From assembly GCA_947462335.1 (NCBI GenBank), contig OX381719.1, forward strand, positions 67,259,534-67,323,533: a DNA stretch of 64,000 nt, given 5' to 3'. Position 1 is the stretch's first letter; the number at the start of each line of letters is the position of its first letter. The translations under genes were made by a program, and so were the position numbers. The notes beneath the pieces were generated by a model. It was not told the origin of the DNA, ran no database searches, and was given only the letters and a program-made list of their open reading frames with translations. Of the stretch, positions 44,296-61,725 are shown piece after piece. This DNA comes from Harmothoe impar. Its lineage: Eukaryota > Annelida > Polychaeta > Phyllodocida > Polynoidae.

Positions 44296-44690
44296 AGTAG
44301 TATATAGGAGCATATTCAGCGCGTAAGAAACGGTAGCAAGTAGGTCAGTTGACACTTGCAGAACGGAAGTGACCTTTAAGAGCCAATCAGAAGCCTCTAT
44401 ATGACAGGAAGTGACGTCACTGACCTAGATTAGAGGTCATGACATACTTTACAAGCTTCTGATTGGTTAATATATGTCAATATGACCTACTAACTTTGTA
44501 AATACAAGGTACACGTGCTATACACCACGTGGCTTTCAAATGTCAACAATGACATTTCAGTAATACCGTCACATGCAGATGGAATACTAACTTTAGTATT
44601 CAATAAATACCGTTGGTATATACACAGATACACGACACAATTTGTTTTTTTCATTCTTTTTTATTTCACACAAAGCAAAAAGCAAAGCAG
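44296..44690. repeat. Presumed left terminal repeat region of the outer Polinton
   Basis: Begins AGTAGTATATAGG. It contains GGAAGTGAC, CCAATCAGAAGCCTC and a TGACGTCA element, which match the motif set of the inner element's terminal repeats. No frame is seen. Confidence 0.6.
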
Positions 44691-45038
44691 TTACAAAGTG
44701 AATGAGTTATTGGCACAGTTCAACCCACACCCTCCTCCAGTTTTAGTTTTCTCCACTTCTGCCTTGTCTTGAACTTCTTCTAGTTGCCTCACTCTGTACA
44801 TGAGCTGACTGATCATATCAATTATTTTATCCATGACATCAGCGTTACTCTTCAACCCGTCGATCACGTCTAATTCTCTCTGAGTGCTGTCTGCAAGTAA
44901 GTTGTGTTTAGTACTTGCAGCTTCTTGCTCTAGAGACTTTAGTATAGACTCATGTATGGCTCTACCAGGCGATCGGTCAGGTTGGTTGGCAGTTGGAGAA
45001 GGTTGTGTAGAGTGTGTTGAGGGTCTTGGGTTCGACAT
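44691..45038 (-). CDS. Small coiled-coil protein downstream of the protease (unknown)
   Basis: 115 aa from the ATG at 45,038; the frame upstream of it belongs to the protease overlap. The N-terminus is Ser/Pro/Thr-rich. Residues about 45-95 form a helix with heptad character (IIDMISQLMYRVRQLEEV). The C-terminus has GGGCGLNC. It overlaps the 3' end of the protease gene by about 100 nt in another frame, is last in the gene series and lies next to the terminal region. It may be a structural or accessory virion protein; no family was recognised. Confidence 0.6.
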   Translation of the reverse strand: MSNPRPSTHSTQPSPTANQPDRSPGRAIHESILKSLEQEAASTKHNLLADSTQRELDVIDGLKSNADVMDKIIDMISQLMYRVRQLEEVQDKAEVEKTKTGGGCGLNCANNSFTL

Positions 45039-45388
45039 GTTTCTATCAAGAAGTTGATGCAATGAGCTCCACAAGTCTTAGTGTATAAACTTTGTAGTTG
45101 TTGCTTGTTGAACGTCCCACGCTTGTCTGACGATTTCTTCAAGAACGCTCTGTGATATACACTCATAGGGGGTAAACCATAAGGATCGAAATAGTACACT
45201 ACTCCATCACTCTGAACATAGAAAGCTATCCAATGTTGTCCAGGTTGTGTGTGGGGGTGTGTGTTACTGACAAAGCAAGTCAGAGGTGTTGCTTCAGCAG
45301 GGCACTCATCACTAGGGAAAGTACCTAGGAAGTATCGTCGAGTGTGAGGGTGTTGGCTAAGAACAGTGTTCAGTTGTGAAGTCTTCAT
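44939..45388 (-). CDS. Adenain-like cysteine protease (Polinton)
   Basis: 149 aa starting at the ATG at 45,388; codons upstream have no ATG and lie over the capsid gene. Adenovirus-protease features are present: His52 in QHWIAFYV, Asp68 in YYFDPYG, Gln99 and Cys106 in Q-S-L-Y-T-K-T-CG-x-x-C. The Gln-to-Cys spacing of seven matches adenain. This enzyme matures capsid proteins in adenoviruses, and the same role is proposed for Polintons. It starts 4 nt after the end of the major capsid gene. Confidence 0.9.
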   Translation of the reverse strand: MKTSQLNTVLSQHPHTRRYFLGTFPSDECPAEATPLTCFVSNTHPHTQPGQHWIAFYVQSDGVVYYFDPYGLPPMSVYHRAFLKKSSDKRGTFNKQQLQSLYTKTCGAHCINFLIETCRTQDPQHTLHNLLQLPTNLTDRLVEPYMSLY

Positions 45389-45392
45389 CTTC

Positions 45393-46706
45393 TCAGGCCA
45401 TGTGGTAGTCTGTGACTGGTAGTCTGTCAGCTGTGAGTTGGATGTTGTTGTCGTAGAAAGCACAGATGACAGCTGAGATGGCGTGATTTGTAGGGGCGTT
45501 GAACCTCAGAGACACAGTCAACTTCCCTTGCTTCACTAAGTTGATGCGTGGGCATTCAGGAGTCCTGTCTGGAGTCAGGTCGAAAGCGAAGACTGTGTAC
45601 CCTGATTGGAACTGTTCTAAAGTGAGACCACAATCTTGACCTACAGCTAGTAGACCTGTCTCTCTGAACAAGTTCCTGTAAGCTTTCACACAGTTCCCTG
45701 CAACAAAGTCAGTCTTCACTTCATATTTATGGTCATCATACTTCAGACCTACTTCTCTCACTGAGTAGTTCTGGAAGTTGAACGGGTTCTCGCTTTTAGT
45801 GCCTGACGCTGCAGTCTCTTTGACTAAAGCTAGTAGGACACGGGTCGGGATCTGTCTTGTGTCGGGTTGAGTCCAACTGTACTCTTGTGACCCTCCGTCT
45901 AGAGTGTGTTGAGTGACTCGACACCTCGTCAGAGTGTAGTTGAATGGCCCGAACTGAGGGTTCATCACTGTTTTATTGTGGACTTCAGCTACTTCGTCTC
46001 TCACAGTCACTTGGCGCACGCTCATCTCAGCTTTAGTGATCTTCACTTTGAAGTCCAAGTCTGCAGCTTGCATCATGTAGAAAGCTGGAGAGCTACGTTC
46101 ATATATGAACTTGAACTCACAATGTGAAGGGAAGAGCTTGCACTGCTTGAGGAGGTCGATGTGGGGTCTGATGATGACTCCGTGAGTCCGTCTTGCACTG
46201 AACTCTTTCCGGCAAGCAACGAAACCTGTGTTAGCAGCAACTCGTCCTTCCATGTGGCCAGCTGTGTCCATCATCCACTTCTGTAGACCCTTCAACCGAG
46301 TAGTCTTGTCGTTCACTTCAGTTCCTACTAAGTCTAACAATGTCGATTTCAGTGCATAGTCTTCATTGTTCCCTGTCACTTTCTCTCCGTTGATCAACAG
46401 TTGAACAGAAGAGAAGAGGGAGTGGCCTATGTTGTTCACAGGTGCAGCTTCGTCACCTACTGCTAGACGTGTCCCAGCAGCATCTACAACTTCTATTTCC
46501 AAGTACAACTCTGCTTCACTCAAATCTGTGTACAGAGTAGTTGGCTCAAAAGTAAAGTCGAAAGAGTCAGTGTGGTCAGTCAAAGCATTGTTAGTTGTCT
46601 TAGTGACTGTCTGACTTTTCAGAATGTCTTTTTGAGTCACTCCTACTGCATGGAGATCTAACTCTCCTACAGCACATGTCTGGCCATGAGGATGTAACAG
46701 ACTCAT
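45393..46706 (-). CDS. Major capsid protein, hexon-like double jelly roll (Polinton)
   Basis: 437 aa from an ATG. The block APVNNIGHSLFSSVQLLINGE in the first third is the most characteristic Polinton capsid segment, where a short loop precedes the beta strands of jelly roll 1. Further beta-rich segments follow to the C-terminus. The length fits the family. It would form the trimeric capsomers of an icosahedral particle. Only 2 nt separate it from the upstream pVI-like gene, and 4 nt from the protease. The frame is intact. Confidence 0.88.
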   Translation of the reverse strand: MSLLHPHGQTCAVGELDLHAVGVTQKDILKSQTVTKTTNNALTDHTDSFDFTFEPTTLYTDLSEAELYLEIEVVDAAGTRLAVGDEAAPVNNIGHSLFSSVQLLINGEKVTGNNEDYALKSTLLDLVGTEVNDKTTRLKGLQKWMMDTAGHMEGRVAANTGFVACRKEFSARRTHGVIIRPHIDLLKQCKLFPSHCEFKFIYERSSPAFYMMQAADLDFKVKITKAEMSVRQVTVRDEVAEVHNKTVMNPQFGPFNYTLTRCRVTQHTLDGGSQEYSWTQPDTRQIPTRVLLALVKETAASGTKSENPFNFQNYSVREVGLKYDDHKYEVKTDFVAGNCVKAYRNLFRETGLLAVGQDCGLTLEQFQSGYTVFAFDLTPDRTPECPRINLVKQGKLTVSLRFNAPTNHAISAVICAFYDNNIQLTADRLPVTDYHMA

Positions 46707-46708
46707 GA

Positions 46709-47200
46709 TTAGAACAGTAGTGCTTTATTGCTAGCACGACTCTGCTTCTTCTTCTTGCGCCCTTTGCCTGTCTGCTGCTTAGTACGTCCTGCACGTCGGA
46801 CTGTCGCACGGCGTTTGGCTGGAGTCGGTTGAGACACTCTGTTTATGTAGTTCTGAGCTGAAGAATGAGCTCTCTTCAATAGAGCTTGGCTTTGACCTCT
46901 GACATGTTTGTTTACACTCTTCTTGAGTGGTTTTCCAGCCATGACATCTGAAAGTACTCCTGCACCTGTAGAGAGTAGTGCTGTGCCAGCTGTCTTAGCA
47001 ACTTTACGACCAATAGTGCTCAAAAGGGGGACAGCTCCTCGCAGTAATCCTGATATGATAGATCCAATACCATGACCACGTTGCCTAGCTACTCCACCGA
47101 AAGCTGGTAGAACACCGTGACCAAACTGAGATTTAGCATAGTAAGCACCATACTCCCCTCTAGGGGCTAAGTATGGAGGTGGGCCAAAGCGCTGAAGCAT
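46709..47200 (-). CDS. pVI-like minor capsid/membrane-active protein (Polinton)
   Basis: 163 aa starting at the ATG at 47,200. The longer frame to 47,284 reads into the inner element's terminal repeat and is excluded. The N-terminal part has an amphipathic/Gly-rich segment (GHGIGSIISGLLRGAVPLLSTIGRK), preceded by LPAFGGVA, which resembles an adenain cleavage site. The C-terminus is strongly basic (KGRKKKK). This combination resembles adenovirus pVI/pX-type proteins. The inner element lies 14 bp upstream of the start, so its natural upstream neighbour, penton, is now 9.5 kb away. Confidence 0.72.
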   Translation of the reverse strand: MLQRFGPPPYLAPRGEYGAYYAKSQFGHGVLPAFGGVARQRGHGIGSIISGLLRGAVPLLSTIGRKVAKTAGTALLSTGAGVLSDVMAGKPLKKSVNKHVRGQSQALLKRAHSSAQNYINRVSQPTPAKRRATVRRAGRTKQQTGKGRKKKKQSRASNKALLF

Positions 47201-47214
47201 ACTGTTACTATATG

Positions 47215-47673
47215 AGTAGTATAGTATGTATCGGAACGGGACTATAGTTAAGTACTGTTTATTACTCAATCGACATGCAGCCAATCAGAGGCCTCCATTT
47301 GGTCACGTGACCGGAAGTGACCTACTTAGGGGATTAGTGGTGACGTCACGTGACCTAGTTAGCCAATCAGAGGCCTCCATTTGGTCACGTGACCGGAAGT
47401 GACCTACTTAGGGGATTAGCGGTGCATTCTGGGTAACCCTGCAGCCAATCAGAGGCCTCCATTGGGTGACCGGAAGTGACCTACTTAGGGGATGGTGCAT
47501 TCTGGGTAACCTACTGACCTACTTAGGGGACCGGAAGTGACGTCATATGACCTAATTTAGGATCACGTGATCGGAAGTGACCTGATGAGTCACGTGACCG
47601 GAAGTGACGTCACACGACTTAATGGCCAACCGGAAGCGACCTGATTGATCACGTGACCGGAAGAAGAAGAAGT
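47215..47673. repeat. Left terminal inverted repeat of the nested element
   Basis: About 459 bp, inverted relative to 56,266-56,717 with high identity and a few small indels. It is built from repeated modules: CCAATCAGAGGCCTCCAT (CCAAT box), CACGTGACCGGAAGTGAC (E-box plus ETS-type), CTACTTAGGGGAT and TGACGTCA (CRE). CGGAAGTGAC occurs six times. It ends inward in a GAA run. Confidence 0.92.
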
Positions 47674-47887
47674 TTTTTTTTTGTTTAGGATCCCGTGACT
47701 GGAAGCGACGTCGTCACATGAGTGACGCTTTAAGAGACTGCGCGACTTACTAGTAAAAGAAGCCGTATGATAATAAAAACACAACAATATTTTCTTTTAA
47801 TTTTTTTTTATTTATTTTTTTTTCAATCTTGATAAACACTCTATTTTTGAAAAGATGCACACGCTTATTTTTTTTTTTTTTTTTTTT

Positions 47888-50800
47888 TCATATCTCTAAA
47901 GGACTCGTTGTCACACCGTCAGAATGCACGCGACGCTTATAATACAAGTAGCGCACGCCGTCTTTCTCTATGGTGTAGGTGACTATTTTGTTTCGCACCA
48001 CTTTGAAATTTCTATTTACAGCAATGAGAGTTTTTCGTTGGCGAAGAACATCCAAGAAGGCGTCTGGTTCTTGGGGGTTTTGTTTCTTCTGTACGCCTTT
48101 TGCACTCCATTTTTTGGATTTTCTTTCACCAGTGTCGCTGACTCGATCGTAGCAAATGTAAGTCTTAGGGTTGAGACTTAGGATCCCGTCACCTTCCCAC
48201 TCCGCTTTCATGAGCCCCGAAGTTCTCAGATCGTGAAGGTACCGTCTCTCACAACATCCGCCGGGCGGCGCACACCATTCTCGCACTCTTTCCGTTTTTG
48301 TCTTCACGAAAAGCTCTAAGTGCTCGTCGCACACCGCTGTCGGAAGCCACTTTCGTTTCTCTCTGAAGTACGTCTCTCTCAGGCGAGGTTTCACTAGGTC
48401 ATCCAACGTGGCACCGCTGAGAGCCATGTAAAGACTGTCGGTGTCCATTTGACAAAGGGCATAATCGCGCCGATCGACGAATCTATCCAAGAAGTCGTAT
48501 GTGAACTCTAACATTTTCAACTTCGCGTACTGGTATACCATGAACCCTATCTGAATAGGGAGGTTGTTCTTGACCGTTTTCGGTTGTAGTTCGACTTCAA
48601 ACAGATCGGAAGTCAACTCGGACGCCTTTTTGAAGCGCCACGAATTGGCCAATAGTTCGAACTTCCGACTGTCAGTGTATCTCACCGCCGTGTGTTTTTC
48701 TTTGTTGCAGATTGTTTTACCGTACGTAGCGTTTCCCATTAACTTGTAACAGTCTGACAGAATTTTCTCGTTCTCGTTCACGTCGCCACGTCTTCGCGCC
48801 GCCGTCACTTCGTCCGCGAAACCGGCAAAGGAGCGTTTAGGTAGGTATTCTACCACCAGCTGCACTTTGGTGACTATCAAACCGTGCTCTAAATACCACT
48901 TGAGAAGCGGCGTTCCCAAGAGAATATTTTTTCCGTGGTAACTCCCTATCAGACATCTCTGAGGCGTGTTCAACAGCTTTTCTTCCTGCGCAAAGTCTGA
49001 CATGTGAGGGCCTATGTCCGATTTTGAAACGGTCGCGTTCTTGAAAACGGGGGTCATTTCTTCGAAGTACTCTCGTAGGTGAGGCGGCGTAGTGATGTCC
49101 ACTTGAACTAAACCGAACATTTTCTCCTCTTTCACAGCGGAAAGGATGTCGCTCTCGCTCATCGCGTTTCGAGACACTTTCAAAGCGTCAACCTTCCAGC
49201 GTTGTTGGGAGGCCTTGACCCGCTCATCTCGACGCTTCATCTCTCGCCATTCGCACTCCCACACGACGACCAGCTTGTAACCTAACGCTTTCAAGTAAGC
49301 GCTTACTCTGGTCGTTCTGTCGCGTCTCTCCTCTCTCAGTGAAGCGCACTGATATCGGTGCGACGGTATGCACTCGTGAGCGTGGAACCAACACCCGTGA
49401 AACTGGAAAACCGTATTAGAGGCCGCGTGAAATCCGTCCACGCGAATTCTCCGACAGCCTACCGCCATCTCGCCGCCGTTCAGAGCGTGGCGCAGTTTCA
49501 CGTCGCGGTCGTGCTCTACGAAGCGTAACCACTCCAAAGCGCTGTGAGAGTTTCTTTGCCTGATTTCGGGCTTGAACTCGGTCTCGGGCCGTCTCACCGC
49601 GTAATAGCCCGTGCAGTGCGCTTCGCTCATGCAGCGCAAGTACAGAGAGTTAGCGTCTAGTCCTAGGATGTGTTGGCACGGTCTCGCTTCTTCGCCGTAC
49701 TTGTGCTCCCTTATCCGCGTGGTGCCCTTCTCGTGAAATCTATGGAAGATGATGGAAGGACCGCCGACTAGATTCTCTTTGATCAGAGCGTGGAGGACGG
49801 CGTCGAACTGGGGAAACGTTGTGAACGCGTCTTCTAGGTTTTGGAAGAGGAAGCGTAAAGTCAAACCGGCGAGAGAAACTCCGTCTTTCAACATGTCGAT
49901 GCCGCGATCTTGGAAAAATTTAGCGTGATTTTTCAGAGCTTCTATGAAAGGTTTCACGTCTTTGTTGTTGTAGTGGATCAAGTAGTCTTCCATAGTTTGC
50001 ATCTTCTCGTTGGACCAAACTTTCTGACATGCGGCATAGTCGGATTCGGACATTTTGACGCCCGTCAGCTCGCTGTCGAAAGCCGATCTCGGCGGCAGCG
50101 TTCTGTTTGCCAGTTTCCTGGTAGACGTCATCCATTCGTAAGGAAAGTGACCTTTCTCTTCGTTCCTGGTGAAAGCTCGCAAATAGGTCGCGTAGTTGTA
50201 ACCGGGTGCCAAATAGTTGACTACGTCCAAGAAAACCGTGTGCTGTGTGTAAACCGCCAAGTATTGATTGCTTCTCTTTATGACGCTGAATTCTCGGTTT
50301 CTTCGGTCTCCGGAGGCGAAGAACGAGTGAAGGCGTATTTTGATCAGGTTCAAGTCGTAACGCCCCGAGTTGAAGCCCACCACTGGAGCTTGACGGATGT
50401 ATCTCAGAAGACGCTTCTTCAGTTGAACTAACGGGTGTCTGGTCTGAGCCGCAGCGAAGCCGCCTGGAGAAGGGGTGGTGAACGTCGCCTCCTCCAGCAG
50501 GAGAGCTTCACCTATCGCCGCATCTAACTTCGCTAACGTCGGTCGGTAAAGTTCTAGCACAGCTTCCCCGATCGCTTTGGCGTTCTCGTTTATGTGATTT
50601 AAAACTCGGTCCAACAAGGGGTCGGATTCTGCGTCGGACGCTCTGACGAAGCAGACGGGCCCCTCCCACCCCGGAAAGTCGGATGCGACGCTAGCCGACA
50701 AAGGGACGTGATCCCACAGCAGGGACACGTGCTCCGTCGACGGTTCTATGCACGGTCTGAAGAAAGCCTCGAAATCGAAGGCGATCTTGTAAGGGTAGAT

Positions 50801-52015
50801 TCCGGAATGTCCGTCGGGGGGAAAAATGGAGAAGTCTGCTAGCGCTTCGAAAATCGTTCTCGAATTTTGGTAGATGCCACCTACGTAGCGCAACTTGACT
50901 TGTCGGCAAGAGGAAAGCTGGTTCCTGTGTCGCTTCAGCAAGAACTCGGTGGTGAACGCCGCCTTACACTTGCAACATTCGTATATGCCCGCGTACGCGT
51001 TGAAGTCCGTGACGAGAGAGACGTGCAAACCGCCTTTCGCCGTCAGGTGTAGGTTGACTTTACCTCGGGCGGCCACAGTTCTGGAAGGCGGTCTGATCAG
51101 AGTAACGCGTCTTCTCAACTTCCGCCCCGGCACTTGACGCGACGCGGTGTAAACCGCTATTTGTACGTCAAACAAGTTCTCTAACGCGGGTAAGTCGCGG
51201 ATGTTCAGACCCGGAAAGGATTCAGGTGTGGCAGCGGGACAGAACTGACGTAACAAATCTGAAGCGCGCTTGCTGGTGTTGTATAAGTGAAAGGAAATGC
51301 AGCGGAAGATGCAGAGGTTGTCCTTGTTGGGAAAATCTAACACGCCGCTTCTCTTTCCAACTCGACCGGCCTGAGTGATCCTACCGCCTATGGGGAATTC
51401 CCCCGGTCCCATGTAAACGCAGATGTTCAAATTGGTAGGAAAAAGAACGTGCCACTTGGTGTCAGCGTCGCAAAGTTTCCGTACCTCCTCGCAAGCGACG
51501 GTGTTTTGCATCTTTGAGAGGAGCTCTTCCAAAGTTTCTGAATGAGTTACAGTAGGGAGCGGTTGTATGAGAGTTGCGTTGTTCTGGGAGGCGTGGAAGT
51601 AGCGCAGTTTGCTCTTGTCTTCTCTGTGTTGTAACAGTAAGCCTACCGAGAAACCCACTTTGTATCTGAATCTTTGTGTCAAGTGAATGCGACGCATAGT
51701 ATCTACAGCGTCACTCAACTCGCCGGTTGGTAGCCTGAAGTTTGTTACACTCACGCGAGTCCCGTGCATCCTGACGCCCGTTTGTATCGCAGGCCAATTC
51801 GCCGTGAACGTTTCCTCCCCGTTCGGTACAGCACATATGCGCGGAGGGACGGTCACCCCGTCCAGAGATTCGCGTCGACAAGCGCTCTTTCGGCAATCCC
51901 CTTCGCCGCATAGAGGGCAAAACTTAGCTACTACTCTACAATTTTCTACGTGTCTCTCGTGGTTGTACGCTCTTTTAAACATTTTGAAACACTTTTCGCA
52001 TACGTACTGTGTCAT
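47888..52015 (-). CDS. Protein-primed family B DNA polymerase (nested element)
   Basis: 1,375 aa from the ATG at 52,015; the four upstream codons lack an ATG. Order: Cys/His zinc-binding N-terminus; a segment around residues 235-345 with D-N-x-C...H resembling OTU cysteine proteases; a CCxC...H finger; exonuclease motifs FDFEA (about 418), GFNSGRYDLN (about 551) and Y-x3-D (about 686); polymerase motif A DANSLYL (about 791); the FHGCWFH insert (about 877); motif B KLMGNATYG (about 1,095); motif C MDTDSLY (about 1,193). All catalytic residues are present. It would replicate a linear genome from a protein primer. Confidence 0.95.
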   Translation of the reverse strand: MTQYVCEKCFKMFKRAYNHERHVENCRVVAKFCPLCGEGDCRKSACRRESLDGVTVPPRICAVPNGEETFTANWPAIQTGVRMHGTRVSVTNFRLPTGELSDAVDTMRRIHLTQRFRYKVGFSVGLLLQHREDKSKLRYFHASQNNATLIQPLPTVTHSETLEELLSKMQNTVACEEVRKLCDADTKWHVLFPTNLNICVYMGPGEFPIGGRITQAGRVGKRSGVLDFPNKDNLCIFRCISFHLYNTSKRASDLLRQFCPAATPESFPGLNIRDLPALENLFDVQIAVYTASRQVPGRKLRRRVTLIRPPSRTVAARGKVNLHLTAKGGLHVSLVTDFNAYAGIYECCKCKAAFTTEFLLKRHRNQLSSCRQVKLRYVGGIYQNSRTIFEALADFSIFPPDGHSGIYPYKIAFDFEAFFRPCIEPSTEHVSLLWDHVPLSASVASDFPGWEGPVCFVRASDAESDPLLDRVLNHINENAKAIGEAVLELYRPTLAKLDAAIGEALLLEEATFTTPSPGGFAAAQTRHPLVQLKKRLLRYIRQAPVVGFNSGRYDLNLIKIRLHSFFASGDRRNREFSVIKRSNQYLAVYTQHTVFLDVVNYLAPGYNYATYLRAFTRNEEKGHFPYEWMTSTRKLANRTLPPRSAFDSELTGVKMSESDYAACQKVWSNEKMQTMEDYLIHYNNKDVKPFIEALKNHAKFFQDRGIDMLKDGVSLAGLTLRFLFQNLEDAFTTFPQFDAVLHALIKENLVGGPSIIFHRFHEKGTTRIREHKYGEEARPCQHILGLDANSLYLRCMSEAHCTGYYAVRRPETEFKPEIRQRNSHSALEWLRFVEHDRDVKLRHALNGGEMAVGCRRIRVDGFHAASNTVFQFHGCWFHAHECIPSHRYQCASLREERRDRTTRVSAYLKALGYKLVVVWECEWREMKRRDERVKASQQRWKVDALKVSRNAMSESDILSAVKEEKMFGLVQVDITTPPHLREYFEEMTPVFKNATVSKSDIGPHMSDFAQEEKLLNTPQRCLIGSYHGKNILLGTPLLKWYLEHGLIVTKVQLVVEYLPKRSFAGFADEVTAARRRGDVNENEKILSDCYKLMGNATYGKTICNKEKHTAVRYTDSRKFELLANSWRFKKASELTSDLFEVELQPKTVKNNLPIQIGFMVYQYAKLKMLEFTYDFLDRFVDRRDYALCQMDTDSLYMALSGATLDDLVKPRLRETYFREKRKWLPTAVCDEHLELFVKTKTERVREWCAPPGGCCERRYLHDLRTSGLMKAEWEGDGILSLNPKTYICYDRVSDTGERKSKKWSAKGVQKKQNPQEPDAFLDVLRQRKTLIAVNRNFKVVRNKIVTYTIEKDGVRYLYYKRRVHSDGVTTSPLEI

Positions 52016-52049
52016 GTTTTTTTTCACTCGGTTACCAACTACTTAGCCG

Positions 52050-52165
52050 TCTAACTATCTATCTATCTATCTAGCCATCTATCAATCTGTCGTCTATGTA
52101 ACTATCTTTCTGTCTGCTGTCTGTGTATCCGTCTGTCTGTCTGTCTGTCTGTCTCATACAGCGTA
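52050..52165. repeat. CTAT and CTGT tetranucleotide runs upstream of PolB
   Basis: 'ctatctatctat' and 'ctgtctgtctgt' tracts occupy much of the 195-bp space between the PolB and PC4-like genes. Confidence 0.85.
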
Positions 52166-52210
52166 CGTCAAACGCTGTGTGTGTGTGCGCGCGTGAGCGT
52201 TGAGCGTCTC

Positions 52211-53791
52211 TCATTCCGAATCTATGCCGAGATATTTCAGAATGATCTCTGTTTTGTCATCCAACTCTTTGAGCGCTCTGGCGGACAGCGTCACCCCCTG
52301 CTGTGTGGGTTTTTTGTCAGGACCTTCGTACTTGCGCACGTGGACGAGGTTCTTACCGCTGTAGTAGCTCACAGCTGCGTACACTTCGCCCGCCTCATCC
52401 AGCACTGCGAACCAGGGGGTGTGATTAGGTTTTCCTTGCGCGGCTGCTGTGTCGCGTATGCGCACCACTGCGCGGATATCGGCGATGCGTGCTATGAGCT
52501 CGCGCAGCGCGTCGGCCGTGAAGTGCACTCGCTTGCTTCTGGTCAGAGACGCCTCTTTCACCTGGCCGTCTTTTGTGTAGCGCGGCCTCCTAGACAGTCT
52601 AGCCACGTCCTCCCAGATCTCCAGCGTCAAAGCTCCGTCTAAGCAGAACTCTAACCCGAGTGTTTTCTCTGCTTCTTCTCGTCCATCTCCTTCTTTTTCT
52701 TGTATTTTTCTCTTCTTAGTGGGCCTTGTTGTTCTGGAACTCACCTTAGAACGTTTCACACCCGCAGGATGAGTAACACCATCAGCGTGAGCTGAATCAG
52801 CAGCAGAACCGATAGCAGGAGCAGCGTCAGCGCTGGTGGTATCGGAGGTCTCGTTGTTGGAACAGCGCAGCCACACGCCGTCCGTGCTGTGTGTAGCGGT
52901 AGAAGATGAAGCGCCGCCGCCGCCCTCGTAAGGTGGCGGTGAGGGCAGTCGCCACGGACCGGACGGGGGGGCGCTAGCAGTGGAGGAAGTGAGGTCGAAA
53001 GGTCGAAGAGGGAAGCCGAAAAACGTACCGCTCACCCCTTGCCCTTCGGGTTCTTCGTACGCCTCGTCGTCAGCGTCGTTCTCTGTCTCACCCTGTTGCT
53101 GCTCCTCCTCCTCCTCTTCTTCTCGGTTCAGGGGCTGAGTGTCCGAATAGCTGTAACTCTCAGCGCGAGCGGCGTCGAGGGCGTCCGTCGATGTAGTGGT
53201 GGAGGAGAGGGGCTGTGCAACGTGCGGCAGGTCATCAAAGTCATCAACAGTAGTGGGGAGGTAAAAACCCGGTTGCCAGTACTGCGCTGTGCCAGGAGCG
53301 TTGTCGTCAGTAGTAGTAGCAGTAGCAGCAGGTGCAGCAGAAGCAGCCGCAGCAGCAGCCGCAGCAGACGCAACAGTAGCAGGCGCAGCAGCAGCCTCAG
53401 CAGGCGCAGCCGTAGCAGGCGCAGCAGTAGCAGGCGCAGCAGCAGCAGCAGCAGCAGCAGCAGCGGCAGGCGGGACGGCGGTAGCAGCGGCAGCGCGCTT
53501 AGCAGCAACGTGTACCGTCGCGAGTGTAACAACGTCGCTAGCACGACGACTGCTACCAGTAGTACTACTAGTACTACTACCACTACTACTACTACTGCTA
53601 CTACTAGTGCTACTGCTACTACTACTACTACTACTGCCGCGAGCGCTCGCTACAGCAGGAGGGTGATAAGACCAACCGGCTGCGGCGGTAGTCTCATGTT
53701 CAGTAGCAAGAGCAGGCACTGACGCTAAACGAACGCTGTTCCGCGTAGTCTTCTTGTTCTTGAACGCCGCTAGCTGTTGTCTTTTGCTCAT
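52211..53791 (-). CDS. PC4-like candidate ssDNA-binding protein with long low-complexity N-terminus
   Basis: 526 aa; the start is set at the ATG at 53,791 in a strong context (ACCACCATGA). A TATA box lies about 65 bp upstream. Residues about 40-370 are low complexity (Ser, Ala and acidic tracts), followed by a nuclear-localisation-like PTKKRK. The C-terminal 150 residues contain a block, SYYSGKNLVHVRKY...GVTLSARALKEL, that resembles the ssDNA-binding PC4/p15 fold. An earlier block (LEIWEDV...RVHFTADALRELI) may be a second copy. A role with PolB in replication or in transcription is inferred. The long trinucleotide runs also give false frames on the other strand. Confidence 0.65.
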   Translation of the reverse strand: MSKRQQLAAFKNKKTTRNSVRLASVPALATEHETTAAAGWSYHPPAVASARGSSSSSSSSSTSSSSSSSSGSSTSSTTGSSRRASDVVTLATVHVAAKRAAAATAVPPAAAAAAAAAAAPATAAPATAAPAEAAAAPATVASAAAAAAAASAAPAATATTTDDNAPGTAQYWQPGFYLPTTVDDFDDLPHVAQPLSSTTTSTDALDAARAESYSYSDTQPLNREEEEEEEQQQGETENDADDEAYEEPEGQGVSGTFFGFPLRPFDLTSSTASAPPSGPWRLPSPPPYEGGGGASSSTATHSTDGVWLRCSNNETSDTTSADAAPAIGSAADSAHADGVTHPAGVKRSKVSSRTTRPTKKRKIQEKEGDGREEAEKTLGLEFCLDGALTLEIWEDVARLSRRPRYTKDGQVKEASLTRSKRVHFTADALRELIARIADIRAVVRIRDTAAAQGKPNHTPWFAVLDEAGEVYAAVSYYSGKNLVHVRKYEGPDKKPTQQGVTLSARALKELDDKTEIILKYLGIDSE

Positions 53792-53850
53792 GGTGGTGAC
53801 TGTAGAGAGCAGCAAAAAAGAATGAGTGAGTGAATGGAGGTTTCCAAGCC

Positions 53851-53860
53851 CCTTATATAC
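53851..53860 (-). promoter_or_regulatory. TATA box of the PC4-like gene
   Basis: GTATATAAGG in minus-strand reading, about 60-70 bp before the ATG at 53,791. Confidence 0.65.
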
Positions 53861-53876
53861 GCCTTCTCGCTTCTAG

Positions 53877-54245
53877 AGCTAAGCTACTTACCGACCCTGT
53901 TCAGCTGCCGCCGGCTGGCCGGCGGCCATTCACAAAGAGAAACAAAAAGACATAAGGCATGACGTTTTCAGCTGGATCCCTTTCCCCCCCCTCTTTTGAG
54001 AGATCGACTGTGATGATGAGCTAAGCCGCTTACCACCCTGTTCAGCAATTCAACGCGCATTAGCTGTATAAAGGGTTAAGCGGTTGCTGCCTGCCGTCGA
54101 CTGACCGGCGGCGGCCATTCACAAAGACATAAGGTATGACGTTTTCAGCTGGATCCCTTTTTGAGGGATCCACTGTGGTGAGCTAAGCCGCTTACCACCC
54201 TGTTCAGCCATTCAGCGCGCGTTAGCTGTATAAAGGATTAACGGT
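53877..54245. repeat. Direct repeats between the divergent PC4-like and death-domain genes
   Basis: Three copies of 'gctaagc.gcttacc.accctgttcagc' at 53,877, 54,019 and 54,180. Two copies of 'ggcggccattcacaaag' with 'gacgttttcagctggatccct', and two of 'gcgttagctgtataaagg'-like sequence, lie between them. They sit in the intergenic region between oppositely transcribed genes, so they may be shared promoter/enhancer units or a replication element. Confidence 0.7.
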
Positions 54246-54748
54246 AACGGTGATGAGCTTACAGTGTGTATACAAAAAAAAACTACAGGAGGCGTGTGGC
54301 GTGAAGCAGGACCCCCCTAAGACGAACGTGTCTGTCTGTGAGTAGAGGCGTGTGCATGTGGTGAGCGACTTAAGTGTAAGACAAAAATCGCCACCTCCTG
54401 CCGTGGTGAGTAGACCGGGCCGGCCAGGCGGGCGGGCGGCCGGCTAGTTCAATAGGGAGGGGTGACAGCTGCCTAAGGCTGTGCATGAAAAAAAATCCGA
54501 TTTTCACCTGACCTCTGACGTTTGTTACAATGAATGTCAGAGGGAGGGAGACGTCCTCGGGTAGGGGGTAGGAGGTATTAAGGCTATGAGTGAGGAAAAA
54601 ACACCGTTTTCAGCTGGTCTCCACGGATAGCGATGCCACACCCCCTCGTCATCTAAGCTCTTAAGGAGCGGAGCGGCTGAAAAAGCGTCATGCGGACAGG
54701 GCGCTAGACAGCTGGAGCGCTGTTGGAAATGGGATTAAACTCCCTCTG

Positions 54749-54757
54749 TATAAAAAG
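54749..54757 (+). promoter_or_regulatory. TATA box of the death-domain gene
   Basis: TATAAAAAG 149 bp before the ATG at 54,898. A CCG/CCA-repeat leader (54,819-54,890) follows. Confidence 0.6.
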
Positions 54758-54840
54758 CTCTCATTTCTGTTGGAAAAAAAACATATCGCCTCTGACCCCA
54801 GTAACGGCTACTACCACCACCACCGCCACCACCACCACCG

Positions 54841-54871
<31 letters not shown>

Positions 54872-54897
54872 TGCCGCCGCCGCCAAGACGAGACAAG

Positions 54898-55647
54898 ATG
54901 GCTCAAGCTATTCCACTTTCAAGCTCGCCTTCACCGCCCGGTGCGCCTGAAAAAAAGTTAATGCAGCTTGACGACGTGAGACGCGGCGCGAGGCAGCAGA
55001 CCGATGATGGGGAGACCCGACAGGTAGGACAGTGGCGGTTAGCCTATAGCGACGCCTTGCTTCGTCAACTAGGTAAAGAGTTGAGCGGCTGTTGGAGAGA
55101 GTTGGGCAGTAGCTTAAAAGTCAGCGCCGCCCGTATGGATGCTCTAGTAGAGCGCAGTGTCAAGACACCGGAGGAGCTGTGTACGGCGATGTTCCGAGTG
55201 TGGTGGGGTGAAACCCCGCATCGTCATAGATGGGGCGAGCTCGGTCGCGTCTTCACCCGCATTAGACGCATGGAACTGTTGGCTCAGTGGATGGCCCTTC
55301 TCCACAGACAGGGGTTGGATTTCGAAAACCCCGACTCGCGCGCGATGCATAAGCACTTGGGCACCCTCGGCAGACGTCTGGGTAGCAGGTGGAAAGAGGT
55401 GGGGGACCATTTAAAATTGTCGCCTGAGAGGTTAGATAAGATCGCTGAAGAATGCGAATACGGAGGAAGTCCCGCTGAGTGGGCCTTCCGAGTGTTGAAA
55501 ATGTGGCAAGATGAAGCTGACGGCGCCGGCGGTACGCCTTTTGAACTCCTTCGAGTGTTGACTGAGGACATGGGAAAGTTTGGCCTCGGCATCGCGATAT
55601 TACTTGACTTTATCAAGCAAGAAACAACGAGAACGACGGACATGTGA
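54898..55647 (+). CDS. Tandem death-domain protein of the nested element
   Basis: 249 aa from an ATG in good context (acaagATGg). After a 45-residue disordered N-terminus come two helical domains with death-domain signatures. DD1 is at about 50-135: CWRELGSSLKVS, PEELCTAMFRVWW, MELLAQWMALL. DD2 is at about 150-240: RWKEVGDHLKLSPERLDKIAEE, PAEWAFRVLKMWQDE, FELLRVLTEDMGKFGLGIAILL. The conserved Trp residues W66, W102, W165 and W203 hold the usual positions. No caspase or kinase domain is attached. It probably acts on host death-fold signalling, apoptotic or innate immune. It is the only plus-strand gene of the element. Confidence 0.75.
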   Translation: MAQAIPLSSSPSPPGAPEKKLMQLDDVRRGARQQTDDGETRQVGQWRLAYSDALLRQLGKELSGCWRELGSSLKVSAARMDALVERSVKTPEELCTAMFRVWWGETPHRHRWGELGRVFTRIRRMELLAQWMALLHRQGLDFENPDSRAMHKHLGTLGRRLGSRWKEVGDHLKLSPERLDKIAEECEYGGSPAEWAFRVLKMWQDEADGAGGTPFELLRVLTEDMGKFGLGIAILLDFIKQETTRTTDM

Positions 55648-55811
55648 ATTGTTGTGTTTTATTTTCATACGTCTTCTTTATTAGTAAGTAAAAAAAAAAA
55701 AAAAATATATATATCATAACAATTAAGACGCGCGATCTCTTAAAGTGTCACTTCCTCCAGTCGCAGCTGATCGCCTCATCGCAGCACGTGATAAACAAAA
55801 AAAAAACACGA

Positions 55812-55853
55812 AGAGACACGCTTCTTCCTCTCGAGAGGAAGAAGCGTGTCTCT
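55812..55853. other. Perfect 42-bp palindrome
   Basis: Arms of 21 bp with no spacer, centred on the TCGA within CTCTCGAGAG. It lies about 165 bp past the death-domain stop. It could be a 3'-end or processing hairpin, or a cruciform used in replication. Confidence 0.9.
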
Positions 55854-55899
55854 CGATTGAAAATCTTTTTCTTTCTTAAAAGAGACAAACGCGCCCCTT

Positions 55900-56045
55900 A
55901 GAGTGCCCCCCCCTAGAGTGCCCCCCTCCCCCCCCTCCCCCCCTCCCCCACTCGCCCCATGCATCCTAAAAGCGCCCCCCTCCCCATGCATGTTAAAAGG
56001 GCCCCCCTCCCCCCCCTCCCCTCCCCTCCTTCCCCTCCTTCCCCC
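55900..56045. repeat. C-rich simple sequence
   Basis: CCCCTCC runs and 'gagtgcccccc' repeats. The stretch 55,648-56,265 otherwise holds only the palindrome and AT-rich sequence, with an AATAAA near 56,108. Confidence 0.8.
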
Positions 56046-56265
56046 TTATACACTCTAAAGAACGCTTCTAACTAGTTCAATAAGTCACTTCCAGTCGCTC
56101 GTAAAACAATAAAAAATGAAAAAAAAACTTATATCGTGGTGTTTTTTATTAGTTTACCAAAAAAAAATAAGAGACTCGCCTCCTCCTCCAAAAAAAAAAG
56201 ATATCACATTTTAAAGCCCGTGACCCCTTAAAGACGCTCATCTCTTCATTAAGTCGCGTGACGTC

Positions 56266-56296
<31 letters not shown>

Positions 56297-56717
56297 CTTC
56301 TTCTTCTTCCGGTCACGTGATCAATCAGGTCACTTCCGGTCACGTGATCCTCAATGAGGTCACTTCCGGTTGGCCATTAGGTCATGTGACGTCACTTCCG
56401 GTCCCCTAAGTAGGTCAGTAGGTTACCCAGAATGCACCATCCCCTAAGTAGGTCACTTCCGGTCACCCAATGGAGGCCTCTGATTGGCTGCAGGGTTACC
56501 CAGAATGCACCGCTAATCCCCTAAGTAGGTCACTTCCGGTCACGTGACCCAATGGCGGCCTCTGATTGGCTAACTAGGTCACGTGACGTCACCACTAATC
56601 CCCTAAGTAGGTCACTTCCGGTCACGTGACCAAATGGAGGCCTCTGATTGGCTGCATGTCGATTGAGTAATAAACAGTACTTAACTATAGTCCCGTTCCG
56701 ATACATACTATACTACT
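56266..56717. repeat. Right terminal inverted repeat of the nested element
   Basis: Inverted partner of 47,215-47,673. Starts in a TTC run and ends CTATACTACT, followed by the TATATG duplication. Confidence 0.92.
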
Positions 56718-57396
56718 TATATGTGGTTGCTTATAGGCTTAAAAGCTAGTACTACAGTCACTGCTCCACGTTCAAAGGGTATAGGACGACCTGTGCTGTC
56801 TCTTAAGTAGATCGCGATCTGTCTGAAGCTGCTCTTACTCACAGGTTGGTACATCAAAGGTTGGAAAGTGACAGTCTGTGTGTCACCTAGCAGTGGATTA
56901 ATGTTTACAACTCTCAACAGAGGTGCTCTCTTGTCTCCAACGATGTTATGTTTCACTATATCAGAGTATACATAGACAGTCTGAGCTCTGAACTTCAAGT
57001 CTACTACAGCTTGACCTTCAGTCTTATTCATCAAGAAGACACCACCTCCGAACCCTAACTGCACACCCAAGTTTACTGGTAGTTGTATCACAACATCAGG
57101 AGGTAGAGCTACAATACACTTCATTGTATACCTGTTGTATGTGAACACGTTAGATTTATTGTTCTTGTGGTGTGTCCTCAGTTTCTTGATTATACTAGGG
57201 TGTTTCCTGTTTATACATTTGTTCAGATAATTTATGAAGTCAGAGTTGTCTTGTAGATATACACCTTGCAGAGAGAAAGCTGTATACGTCCGGACTGCTG
57301 GGAATTGAAAAGTGTTGACTAGTTTATCTAAATACTTCAACTTTAATTCTATTTTCACTACTCTGAGTTCTTCCTCAGTCAAAACTTCTGACTCTC
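56717..57396 (-). pseudogene. Penton (single jelly-roll minor capsid) gene, C-terminal part
   Basis: Contains the family hallmark region VYVYSDIVKHNIVGD...APLLRVV, then FRQIAIYLRDSTGRPIPFERG, as in the widespread F54H12.2-like Polinton pentons. There is no ATG at its start: the frame runs into the terminal repeat of the inserted 1.58-kb element. The stop codon straddles the TATATG duplication and the first base of the nested element. The gene is split and this copy cannot make a normal penton. Confidence 0.88.
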
Positions 57397-57398
57397 TA

Positions 57399-58979
57399 CC
57401 CAGCAAATTGTGGTCATGTTGTGTGAGGGCTGGGACACCCCCTGTCCCAATGCGCTAGTTGAAATAAAATCTGGTCATGGTGGGTCATGACCCAGCCTGA
57501 CCAGAGTGGACACATCGCGTCATAACCCAGCCTGACCAGGGTTGACACATTGGGTCATGACCCAAACTGACCATGGTGGACACACTGGGTCATGACAGTA
57601 CCTGACCAGGGTTGACCCAACTATTATGACTATGGCATTATTATTAACCCATTTTTTTCTATTTTCCCAGGGGGGAGGGGGAGGGGGGTCATTAGCAATG
57701 TGGTGGATTGGATGGGGGTGTGGAGCAATATGATTGTTTCATCATTTCCTTTTATTTAAAACATCATTTGAATCTTCTCCCCGGCCTCTGGACGTCCTCC
57801 TCCCGTTGTAGTATCATCCAGCACCCCCTCAGTCTTCTCCCCGGCCTCTGAACGTCCTCCTCCCGTTGTAGCATTGTCCACCACCTTCTAAGTCTCCTCT
57901 CTGGCCTCTGGACGTCCTCCTCCCGTTGTAGCATTGTCCACCACCTTCTAAGTCTCCTCCCCGGCCTCTGGACGTCCTCCTCCCGTTGTAGTATTGTCCA
58001 CCACCTTCTAAGTCTCCTCCCCGGCCTCTGGACGTCCTCCTCCCGTTGTAGTATTGTCCACCACCTTCTAAGTCTCCTCCCCGGCCTCTGGACGTCCTCC
58101 TCCCGTTGTAGTATTGTCCACCACCTTCCAAGTCTCCTCTCTGGCCTCTGGACGTCCTCCTCCCGTTGTAGTATGATCTAGCACCCCCTCAGTCTTTTTC
58201 CCGGCCTCTGGACGTCCTCCTCCCGTTGTAGTATTGTCCACCACCATTGACCACCACCTCTCTATTCCTTTGTTGGGATGCAAAGATGGCGTCACCCACG
58301 CTTGGATGGCGTCATCACGTGACCTGGATGGCGGGAAGCACAATCCAGGGTGTGTGGGGTGGGAGGGTGTGTGTGCGGGGAGGGGGGGGGGGGCAGGGGG
58401 GGTAACGATTATTGACATATGAAAAATCAATACTGATATATCAATGTATTGCAATATGATATTTAAACTATTAGGTACATCTGAAACACTATAATTATAG
58501 ATATTGCCTCAATAAGCAGAGAGAAATAACAAGAACAAATGTTTATGGTAGCTGAACACCAGTTCTATTATTGTCACTGAAAATGTTCACATAGTAATAA
58601 ACACAAAACTACTGCAAGGTAAAAAGTCTGACCTTAGGCAGAGGGAACGGAATATAAGTACTATAAGACTATATTATAATTGAACTAGATATAACAACTA
58701 TTACGATCATATATATGCAACCACTAAATTGTGACTAACCCAGACTGACCCAGTGCATCATGACCACTGTAATGAGATGGGTCAGAATGCGCCATACTGG
58801 GCTAGGGCTGACTTGGGGTGACTCATACTGACCCGATGCATCATGACCCCTATTGTCAGATGGGTCAGAATGTGTTATGCTGGGTCAGGGTGACAGGGGA
58901 TGACCCAGGCCAACCCACTGCGTTATGACCCAACGCATGGATGACCCAAGCAGACAATACATGACCCCAGTTTGCTGGG
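57399..58979. mobile_element. TIR element (1.58 kb) that splits the penton gene
   Basis: The ends CCCAGCAAATTGTGGTCATGT and ACATGACCCCAGTTTGCTGGG (with a short mismatch region) are inverted, and TA lies on both sides (57,397-57,398; 58,980-58,981). It contains repeated 'gggtcatgacccagcctgacc' subterminal motifs, eight 60-bp tandem units (57,773-58,250) and no transposase. The two penton fragments add up to a multiple of three once the insertion and one TA are removed, which confirms the boundaries. Confidence 0.88.
57773..58250. repeat. 60-bp tandem repeat, about 8 copies
   Basis: Unit contains 'ccggcctctggacgtcctcc' and 'tcccgttgtagtattgtcca'. It gives a spurious minus-strand frame of a repeated 20-residue GGG..YNGRRTSRGRG unit. 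Confidence 0.95.
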
Positions 58980-58981
58980 TA

Positions 58982-59649
58982 GTAGTAAGCCCGTTTATGA
59001 ATGCTGCTTTTTCTGTGTAATTTAAGTTGAGTGAATCTCTCACAGCTGAGACTGCTGCACTCGCACGGTTCTCGGGGTTCAAACCGCGTACTATTCTGTA
59101 AGTGATACTGTCTGCACCAGATGGCGGCACTTCTGCTAAAGGGTCTGGTTCAGTTTCGGTTTCGCTGTCCGATTCGACACTAGGTGGCGGCGCAGGTTGC
59201 GCTACTTCTCCAGAGCTTGGGTCTGATTCTACACTAAGTCTCGCTGTAGGTTGTCGTACTGGTACTTGTTTAGAGCGTTTGATCTCTACACCTCGCTGTA
59301 GACACTTCTTAGCTACGCTGTCGTGTATACTTGAACTTTTCCTATTCAACACAGGATCGTTCGCTGTGTAAGGAAAAAAGTCTGAGCTTCGCTTATGTAG
59401 TGCTTCTTGTAGTCTTTTAGCACTCATGACGCTCTTGGGTATAGTTGAGTCTGTTTCACCTTCTATGAACAACAATGTCTCACATTCTACGTTGTACCAA
59501 CTAGTAGGACACGTTATTTCTTGCAGAGCACACTCCATTGGAGTACTAGAAGATACATACTCAGGTAACAATGTGTTGTAAGTTGTCAGAGTGTTGTCTG
59601 GGAAAACTTTCATAGACGAGTTGCTAGGTAGTGTCATTGTGAACGCCAT
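58982..59649 (-). pseudogene. Penton gene, N-terminal part
   Basis: Starts at an ATG that overlaps the integrase end by 16 nt. The first 60 residues (FTMTLPSNSSMKVFPDNT ... CPTSWYNV) are the conserved beginning of Polinton pentons. A Ser/Pro/Glu-rich linker follows. The coding is cut at 58,981 by the TIR element; the few codons beyond that point belong to the insertion. Together with the C-terminal part, the intact gene would have been about 450 codons, normal for the family. Confidence 0.88.
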
Positions 59650-60716
59650 TTTTTCACGTTCTTAGCAGGTTCCCACGTGTTGAACTTATCCCCGTAACCT
59701 TTCCACTTGACGTATGCTTCACGCTTACGACCTGAGCCTCTGTACTTCACTACTTCCTCTATGTCGTACCTCTTCCCTTGACGGACATGGACCTTTTGAA
59801 CTTCAGGCTGGTAGAAAGTTCCTTTTATCTCTTCTCCTAGTTCATCTTTCAGTTGGTATCCTTTAGGTTTGACAGAATCTATAGTGTATACTTCTTCAGT
59901 CCAGTTAGGTTCGTAACCTCTGTTGAAAGCGCGCTTCTTTGCAAGCATGCGCACTTTAGAACCTTTCTTCAAAAGTAACTTGGGCACAGTCCTCTTGTCT
60001 GGTGGTTGTTCATATAGCCTGTAGAAAAGAGCATCAGAGTTCTTGTCTGTGATGTCGACTGGAGCTGCACCTAGTGTCTTATGCACCGTACTATTGTAAG
60101 AGTGGACTAGATCTTGAAGTATGCCTGTCCACTTGTAGTTGTTGAAGTAAGCAAAGCAACGCCACAGCTTACCTTGCAGTGTGGCGTTAAATCGTTCAGC
60201 TATAGCACATTTCACGTCATCGTTCTCTCCAGTGAACAATTCCACACCAGTTTCTTCTAGATGACTTCTGAAAGTTTGGTTCAAAAATTCTTTTCCTTTG
60301 TCAGTCTGGATTTTAACAGGTTGTCTACTCTCAGTCATTTTCTTGTAAGCTTCTAATACATCTACAGCTTTCTTACTCTTGACAGGTTGAGCAAAGCCAT
60401 ATCTTGAGAAGACATCTATACCAGCTAAAATATACTGGTACCCCTTGTTCTCACGTGAAGACTCTCTCATGTCAATAAGATCTAACTGCCATTGTCTATC
60501 TATACCCCAAGTCTGAGTCTTGTGTCTTGTGAACCGTCTCTTGTAAGGTTTGTGTCTAGTGTAAGCATCCACATCTTCTAAAGCTTCAGCAATGTTTTTT
60601 AAGTCAGTCTTCTTAAAGTGATGGTGTCGCAATTTACTCACGCTAGTGAAACTTCCAGGTTCTCTGACTGAAGTATAGCGATCTACTACAGCTTTCTTCA
60701 AAGCTTTGTCCGCCAT
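59634..60716 (-). CDS. Retroviral-type integrase with chromodomain (Polinton)
   Basis: 360 aa from an ATG. The catalytic triad is visible as D79 (RQWQLDLIDM), D139 (IQTDKGKEF) and E174 (CAIAERFN), giving DD35E spacing. The C-terminal 50 residues form a chromodomain (YDIEEVVKYRG...AYVKWKGYGDKFNTWEPAKNV), which in other elements guides integration to modified chromatin. The enzyme joins element ends to target DNA and makes 5-6-bp duplications. It overlaps the 341-aa gene by 19 nt upstream and penton by 16 nt downstream. The frame is intact, so this copy might supply integrase in trans. Confidence 0.94.
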   Translation of the reverse strand: MADKALKKAVVDRYTSVREPGSFTSVSKLRHHHFKKTDLKNIAEALEDVDAYTRHKPYKRRFTRHKTQTWGIDRQWQLDLIDMRESSRENKGYQYILAGIDVFSRYGFAQPVKSKKAVDVLEAYKKMTESRQPVKIQTDKGKEFLNQTFRSHLEETGVELFTGENDDVKCAIAERFNATLQGKLWRCFAYFNNYKWTGILQDLVHSYNSTVHKTLGAAPVDITDKNSDALFYRLYEQPPDKRTVPKLLLKKGSKVRMLAKKRAFNRGYEPNWTEEVYTIDSVKPKGYQLKDELGEEIKGTFYQPEVQKVHVRQGKRYDIEEVVKYRGSGRKREAYVKWKGYGDKFNTWEPAKNVKKWRSQ

Positions 60717-61723: not shown

Positions 61724-61725
61724 GA

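Follow-up and report, generated by a model that had tools for sequence, protein, structure and literature searches.

The window, the whole 64,000-nucleotide stretch of Harmothoe impar DNA analysed here, contains an element nested inside a larger, one-piece Polinton. We call this element segment A; segment B is a second element class described below. A complete 9.5-kb unit with inverted repeats of about 455 bp and an exact TATATG duplication had been predicted at this site, and both the repeats and the duplication were located, bounding 9,503 bp. The features of the locus are as follows.

44296..47208, outer Polinton, left part, with its end at 44296
44939-45388, outer adenain-like protease
45393-46706, outer probable MCP, so called solely for its size, its position and its homology to B
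46709-47200, outer 163-aa protein
47209..47214, left copy of the 6-bp target-site duplication, TATATG
47215..56717, segment A, complete copy, 9,503 bp
47215..47670, plus strand, left terminal inverted repeat
47888..52015, minus strand, Polinton-type family B DNA polymerase (PolB), 1,375 aa
52211..53791, minus strand, 526-aa protein, N-terminus Ala/Ser-rich, C-terminus PC4-like
54898..55647, plus strand, 249-aa protein with two death-domain stretches
56250..56717, minus strand, right terminal inverted repeat
56718..56723, right copy of the duplication, TATATG
56724..64000, outer Polinton, remainder inside the window
56717-57124 and 58885-59649, ORFs matching the C- and N-terminal parts, respectively, of the 372-aa penton-like protein of B
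59634-60716, outer integrase
62133-62822, outer ATPase-like protein, sub-threshold Pfam match
62836-63522, outer death-domain protein

Results

Structure and genes of segment A

Segment A has both the long terminal inverted repeats (TIRs) and the 6-bp duplication of Polinton type. Its repeats are 99% complementary over 347 nt, identical over the first 161 bp and gapped onward to about 455 bp, and the left repeat carries the motifs CCGGAAGT, TGACGTCA, CACGTGAC and CCAATCAG in large number. At the empty site the stop codon of the right-hand gene is retained, as judged by eye.

The three predicted genes were confirmed as ORFs. PolB retains exonuclease-type and polymerase-type motifs, and its top viral structure matches are adintovirus and MELD virus proteins. 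The N-terminus gives weak OTU-like and Y-family-like folds (best E 2e-3); being terminal-protein-like and OTU-like, it suggests that the enzyme is probably a protein-primed polymerase. In PHROGs, PolB has one weak endonuclease match and one weak polymerase match, and three other proteins have no match. The PC4 match of the 526-aa protein lies under the Pfam cut-off (21.9 versus 25 bits) and its predicted model is too poor for use (mean pLDDT 37); a single-strand DNA binding protein is a possible assignment. The 249-aa protein is homologous to the death-domain protein of the outer Polinton (26%, 2e-12), and PolB aligns to pieces of the outer PolB at 49% (760 residues), 45% (405) and 31% (139) identity. 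These PolB values fall within the range of identities between B and outer proteins. The sequence of the outer PolB and the right outer end lie beyond the window.

Relatives elsewhere came from three separate records, at 77% for PolB (P0002), 77% for the PC4-like protein (P0124) and 75% for the death-domain protein (P0122). In scans of viral contigs, PolB (as a sequence and as an alignment), the outer integrase and its MCP all failed to find a relative, and a search of genome contigs returned one 28% piece on a contig that is filed as a tubeworm-symbiont MAG and is probably host DNA. Contigs of 9.3-10.1 kb carrying PolB relatives raised the idea of free linear molecules; it was abandoned, since an integrated element in many copies would yield contigs of equal length.

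The surrounding Polinton

The first nine bases of segment A, AGTAGTATA, are those at 44296, as had been noted, and 44296 is a real end of the outer Polinton. With a query starting 46 bases outside it, 40 of 430 candidates were scored; apart from one match, which was the window, all begin at query bases 39-47 (39 matches), 27 of them exactly at base 47, which corresponds to 44296. The sequence AGCAGG is found at both outer ends. This one-piece family is abundant, the 113 places scored for its integrase, of 8,188 candidates, all matching at 99-100%, and it has sub-terminal motifs in common with segment A (5 shared 12-mers, versus a mean of 0.02 and a maximum of 2 in 1,000 shuffles). A search of solved structures supported the outer protease as adenain-like and gave no support to the name MCP.

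Copies of segment A lack integrase and capsid genes

Among 40 genome places, the first 19 yielded 19 further copies of segment A, all 9.04-9.55 kb long and each within an exact 6-bp duplication, so that, with the copy in the window, 20 of 20 are precisely bounded. Two copies have the duplication CACGAG in common and one copy sits in a TA repeat; that the duplications differ among the 20 copies tells against a fixed target sequence. All 19 hold the three genes, with only 131 of the 249 residues of the death-domain protein present in one. None of the 19 matched any of nine outer Polinton proteins, integrase and capsid included (tblastn, 1e-3): the rve integrase, and likewise the MCP, penton, protease and ATPase, were absent from all 19 copies and were found on B instead. 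Segment A is thus a real mobile family that lacks integrase and capsid genes, and something must integrate it in trans. The idea that the window holds a one-off deletion product or an assembly artefact has nothing in its favour and is refuted by the 20 exact duplications, the 2,969 exact A-type ends described below and the absence of integrase from all 19 further copies.

In the 20 copies, a set selected for identical repeats, PolB is intact in 19, the PC4-like gene in 19 and the death-domain gene in 17, the rest being broken. The best 150 of 3,924 candidate places for the death-domain gene are all 99-100% identical, full length and stop-free, which puts the number of such genes at 150 or more, a lower bound and not a fraction. 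Variable sites in PolB lean to the third codon position (20/18/32 by position; one-sided p 0.02). They are also less frequent in PolB (70/4,125) than in non-coding sequence of the element, simple repeats included (108/3,044). We take this pattern as a weak sign of selection on PolB.

A second element class with the same ends

Pairing of ends revealed segment B, 10.4-10.5 kb long. The gene content of B is that of a single copy, read almost to completion as the pieces L042 and L043; other copies are known by their length, by their ends, by a single 300-bp probe or by matching the integrase. The copy read carries protease, capsid, integrase and ATPase-like genes, has no polymerase, and shows no match at 1e-3 to the PolB, PC4-like or death-domain proteins of A. 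Its proteins resemble those of the outer Polinton (integrase 46%, ATPase 47%, protease 45%, MCP 34-37%); the names MCP and penton (the latter a protein of 372 aa) are based on size, position and the usual Polinton gene order, and the name ATPase on sub-threshold Pfam matches. Nine B copies were checked at both ends, and every one lies in an exact duplication, each different; the best 109 of 7,821 candidate places for the B integrase are all about 100% identical and stop-free, giving at least 109 places. A and B each occur in many near-identical copies, inserted at separate loci inside 6-bp duplications, and their gene sets, as far as the one B copy shows, are complementary and non-overlapping. 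The gene order of the outer Polinton is that of B (left part) plus that of A (right part, inverted), with the cut between the ATPase and death-domain genes.

The first 98 bp of A and B are identical, versus 9 bp for A and the outer Polinton. The surrounding Polinton, although A is nested within it and has nine terminal bases in common with it, is thus no obvious helper, and its identification as the partner of A is not supported. That A is its satellite is highly improbable on this ground, and the differing duplications of the 20 A copies, which betray no fixed target sequence, also count against it.

An exact 38-bp terminus common to all classes occurs 7,822 times in the host genome, and exact 55-bp ends occur 2,969 times for A and 1,686 times for B, with no hits for reversed-pattern controls. 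Taking half of the exact ends, we estimate copy numbers of the order of 1,500 for A and 850 for B. A run of 39 successive end pairs along C1 comprised 14 of A, 12 of B, 9 of a third class (C) and 4 unclassified. The first 60 bp of class C are identical to the left repeat of segment A, 6-bp duplications are present in both of two copies, and no coding is visible in the 3 kb read. Since class C has related ends without visible coding, shared ends alone are no proof of mutual need. Three A-type end pairs span 29.6-46.8 kb.

Discussion

We consider it probable that the 9.5-kb element, segment A, and segment B are the two halves of one bipartite (two-segment) Polinton. Over 98 bp the ends of A match those of B, which carries integrase and capsid-type genes but lacks a polymerase in the copy read, so the dependence looks mutual: A and B each seem to need the other. 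The original reading of A as a satellite stands insofar as A is a mobile family in need of integration in trans; its one-sidedness is not supported, B being complementary, and the arrangement looks like a divided genome.

The strongest alternative, which we nevertheless regard as unlikely, is that A and B are internal-deletion derivatives of an intact one-piece Polinton that has these ends, survives, perhaps in few copies, and supplies all functions in trans. Non-autonomous derivatives are common among DNA transposons, class C amplifies on the same first 60 bp, and one 15.9-kb end pair is neither A nor B by two probes. Against such a parent, none of 64 adjacent end pairs measures 16-25 kb, and none of 111 places among the best 150 for the A death-domain gene lies within 27 kb of the best 109 B integrase places, these negatives pertaining to samples and best-listed places. 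The many intact genes (at least 150 death-domain and 109 integrase frames, and 17-19 of 20 A copies) and the variable-site pattern of PolB, a weak sign of selection, likewise count against this alternative.

It is less likely still that dependence runs one way only, A being a satellite that draws its integrase (and particles) from a helper of B type, itself copied by another polymerase such as that of the one-piece family. The absence of polymerase from the B copy read fits this view, as do the abundance of the one-piece family and its sharing of AGTAGTATA and sub-terminal motifs with A. However, among the polymerases seen only that of A sits between exactly the ends of B, and the two gene sets do not overlap; nor would B, the end-matching element, be a self-sufficient helper, having no polymerase in that copy.

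On the bipartite reading, PolB of A would start protein-primed copying at the AGTAGT ends common to both segments. Terminal sequence matters for protein-primed starts, and adenovirus begins replication by jumping back, which a repeated AGT would permit here as well. The PC4-like protein of A could coat the displaced single strands, the chromo-domain integrase of B would recognise the common ends and insert each segment separately, and the capsid proteins and ATPase of B may package A and B jointly or in separate particles, the two together (about 20 kb) amounting to one Polinton's worth. The death-domain protein would probably blunt host cell-death or innate signalling. Such a system may have arisen when a one-piece Polinton split between its ATPase and death-domain genes and each half gained a second copy of an end.

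A and B resemble Polintons, Mavericks and adintoviruses (Eupolintoviridae) in PolB, rve-chromo integrase, adenain-like protease, ATPase- and capsid-type genes, long TIRs and 6-bp duplications, the core gene set being complete only when the two are summed. Described members of this group consist of a single linear piece, 15-40 kb in length (PMC12567637; gene list, PMC11071308). The genes of A and B, in contrast, are divided between two separately integrating elements.

To our knowledge, neither Bidnaviridae nor the Drosophila Vesanto virus has an integrase. The portions of the reports consulted describe Polinton-derived PolB, terminal repeats and several segments with similar terminal repeats in parvovirus-related ssDNA viruses (PMC4061559, PMC8363768). 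The polymerase and the similar segment ends of these viruses, as so described, are like those of A and B; their ssDNA, parvovirus-related nature is not. We know of no transpoviron partner with identical ends. Transpovirons are described as 7-kb linear passengers inside the particles of other viruses; their TIRs measure 380-520 nt, they encode no DNA polymerase and they depend on giant viruses (PMC7031253). Segment A is like them, so described, in its TIRs, and would be like them as a linear passenger. The transpoviron hallmark, an S1 helicase fused to an inactivated polymerase, is absent from A, whose polymerase motifs are kept and whose proteins have no helicase among their Pfam matches. Autonomous and non-autonomous transposon pairs, and complementation of the BARE-1/BARE-2 kind, involve trans mobilisation via shared ends with one-sided dependence, whereas the gene sets of A and B are complementary and the dependence is apparently not one-sided.

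Many RNA and ssDNA viruses have divided genomes; a literature search of open-licence papers found no description of one in Polintons or adintoviruses. We lean towards the broader view that this is a multipartite integrating dsDNA animal virus, in which replication and integration/capsid modules reside on separately integrating, jointly amplified segments, and recombinant and apparently non-coding third-class elements use the same ends. As both halves are present in one genome in many near-identical copies, segment ratio, end recombination, age and partner loss can be read directly. If the bipartite reading is true, the transition from a one-piece to a two-piece genome could be put to the test in a host that also has a one-piece sister family, and the system would offer a natural means of telling transposition from virus-like co-transmission.

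A complete nested element with three genes

Segment A, the 9.5-kb element nested in the window, occupies positions 47215-56717 (9,503 bp) and is flanked by TATATG at 47209-47214 and 56718-56723. The inverted repeats at its ends show 99% complementarity over 347 nt; their first 161 bp are identical, and a gapped alignment extends them to about 455 bp. The original prediction of a complete element with such repeats and three large ORFs is borne out.

Large ORFs of segment A
PolB, 1,375 aa
PC4-like protein, 526 aa; C-terminus matches PC4 below the Pfam cut-off
Death-domain (Death) protein, 249 aa; two death-domain stretches

When the flanks are joined without A, the right-hand gene regains its stop codon at the same residue (by eye), indicating that A inserted between two genes. 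The repeats contain many motifs that we take to be ETS-, CRE-, E-box- and CCAAT-like; because these are absent from the interior of A, the sequence suggests that the repeats may also act as promoters. A perfect palindrome of ~42 bp (by eye) lies 3' of the death-domain gene, at 55812-55853. Elsewhere in the window, two retroelements (14273-16907 and 28984-33445) have ORFs that resemble reverse transcriptase and tyrosine recombinase and look DIRS-like by eye; a Ty3-like retroelement lies near 1-4681.

In the 1.51-Gb host assembly, a search with the 456-bp left repeat of A gave 41 matches, of which 40 cover it in full at 100% (40 scored of 908 candidates). The first 19 of these 40 were fetched; all are complete, measure 9,036-9,552 bp and lie between exact 6-bp duplications. 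The three genes of A are present in every one at 98.4-100%; one copy has just 131 of the 249 Death residues. No copy matches any of nine outer-Polinton proteins, in agreement with the predicted lack of integrase and capsid genes. With the window copy included, frames are intact in 19 of 20 copies for PolB, 19 of 20 for PC4 and 17 of 20 for Death. Mean pairwise divergence is 0.35% (190 pairs) in a sample that leans to young copies, having been picked for identical repeats. For the Death gene, the best 150 of 3,924 candidates are all 99-100%, full length and stop-free.

The surrounding Polinton

The left end of the outer Polinton was placed at window 44296 by genome matches to a query across its end: all 39 scored matches besides the window itself (430 candidates) start at query bases 39-47, and 27 exactly at the window-44296 base. 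Its right end is at L040:4185, in a fetched stretch beyond the window, and AGCAGG stands at both flanks. The gene order (protease, MCP, 163-aa protein, penton, integrase, 341-aa protein, 136-aa protein, ATPase, death-domain protein, then PolB) marks it as a one-piece Polinton, MCP and penton being names that we assume from Polinton gene order. Tandem repeats (57481-58301) lie between the two parts in which its penton-like gene (window 56717-59649) is read: ORF 58885-59649 corresponds to the N-terminal and 56717-57124 to the C-terminal part of a 372-aa protein of segment B. The PolB sequence, beyond the window, is nearly identical by eye to P0007, a related protein from other data, and lies in pieces in different frames, so this copy may be damaged.

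A second segment with the same ends

Segment B is a second multi-copy class, of 10.4-10.5 kb, whose gene content was read in two pieces from one copy, C1:68939-79384, on the host contig C1. Its genes are those for protease, MCP, a 141-aa protein, the penton-like 372-aa protein, a 378-aa integrase, a 396-aa protein and ATPase. BLAST matches every one of them to its outer counterpart (integrase 46%, ATPase 47%, protease 45% and MCP 34-37% identity); a 110-aa protein, by its position, may correspond to the outer 136-aa protein. The PolB, PC4-like and Death proteins of A have no match in this copy at 1e-3. The first 98 terminal bp of A and B are identical, and their inner non-coding parts have a common stretch, 72% over 195 columns. 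Exact 6-bp duplications, each different, flank all nine B copies checked at both ends, C1:68939-79384 included, and the B integrases scored (109 of 7,821 candidates) are all about 100% and stop-free. The pair C1:5244882-5255341 (10.46 kb) has an exact 6-bp duplication as well; it was left out of the B count because it shares only 60 terminal bp and its probe, which contains an open 99-codon stretch, matches neither A nor B. At C1:5583582-5604218, two left ends and then two right ends, all of B type, stand in a row, apparently a B copy nested in another.

Abundance and further classes

The exact 38-bp terminus occurs 3,896 + 3,926 times in the genome, and its reversed control not at all. Exact 55-bp ends number 2,969 of A type and 1,686 of B type (1.8 to 1); halved, these give about 1,480 A and 840 B elements, rough figures since many ends are without a matching partner. 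Of the 39 pairs formed by 100 listed ends, all on C1, 24 measure 9.09-9.88 kb, 13 measure 10.38-10.54 kb, and the other two are 6.96 and 15.93 kb long; 22 ends were left without a partner. One 300-bp probe from inside each pair assigned 14 to A and 12 to B; 12 gave no match and one a 35-bp match only. These 13 comprise nine of a third class, C, and four unclassified (785032, 2884121, 4267525 and 5244882).

Class C shares its first 60 bp with A and B, and both copies checked have exact duplications. In the copy C1:987894-997305, 3 kb from the middle (L103, C1:991700-994700) contain no ATG-started ORF >64 aa; they hold repeated units in which there are TATA-like boxes and a 3' stem-loop of histone type (GGCCCCTCTTTAGGGGCC), whose match to the Rfam histone 3' stem-loop is weak (20.2 bits; gathering score 34). 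C1:2884121-2894001 (L108, L109), with an A/B-type left end, a C-type right end and an exact GATATA duplication, is a recombinant between element classes. Probes from the 15.9-kb pair C1:4267525-4283450 match neither A nor B, and one of the two aligns with C probes at 87% over 112 bases; this pair and C1:5244882-5255341, both lacking an A or B probe match, indicate that further classes may exist.

Origin of the two segments

On the outer gene order, B corresponds to the left end through ATPase and A, inverted, to Death through the right end. A single cut between ATPase and Death in a one-piece order would explain this most simply. The PolB of A is 49%, 45% and 31% identical to three outer PolB pieces, similar to B against the outer integrase, ATPase and MCP. 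A quick tree puts it in a group with P0001-P0003, which P0004-P0006 and P0031 (contigs of 9.6-17.6 kb) join next; P0007, which resembles the outer PolB, falls in the sister group. Relatives in other data of all three A proteins (P0002, P0124, P0122 at 77/77/75%) and of two (P0003, P0123 at 67/57%) suggest that A is an old, stable unit, their linkage on one molecule being putative. A distant PolB relative (28%) lies on L001, a contig that is probably host DNA and is recorded under a tubeworm endosymbiont MAG.

Among sampled A/B-type adjacent end pairs, none of 64 spans the 16-25 kb of a one-piece parent: B pairs measure 9.49-10.55 kb in 39 of 39 cases and A pairs 8.8-10.1 kb in 22 of 25, with three at 29.6-46.8 kb. 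The closest A-Death to B-integrase distance is 27 kb (111 of the best 150 A-Death places against 109 scored B-integrase places).

Proposed mechanism

The PolB of A keeps conserved motifs that we take to be of exonuclease and polymerase type. Its N-terminus shows a weak fold likeness to OTU proteases and Y-family polymerases (best E 2e-3, none <1e-3). Such N-terminal folds in Polinton PolBs have been reported as OTU and terminal-protein domains (PMC11071308). From these folds and motifs, this PolB would plausibly start copying at the ends of A and, since they are the same, also at those of B. Among the integrases seen, that of B alone lies between A/B-type ends, and the segments would presumably be packaged.

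In the portions of the open-licence literature consulted, we found no description of satellite, non-autonomous, segmented, bipartite or multipartite Polintons. A had been proposed as a Polinton satellite with helper-supplied integrase, a 'virophage in reverse'; the element itself is real, but the satellite reading gives way to another, in which, as judged from one B copy and sampled end lists, A is most likely half of a Polinton that has been split in two.
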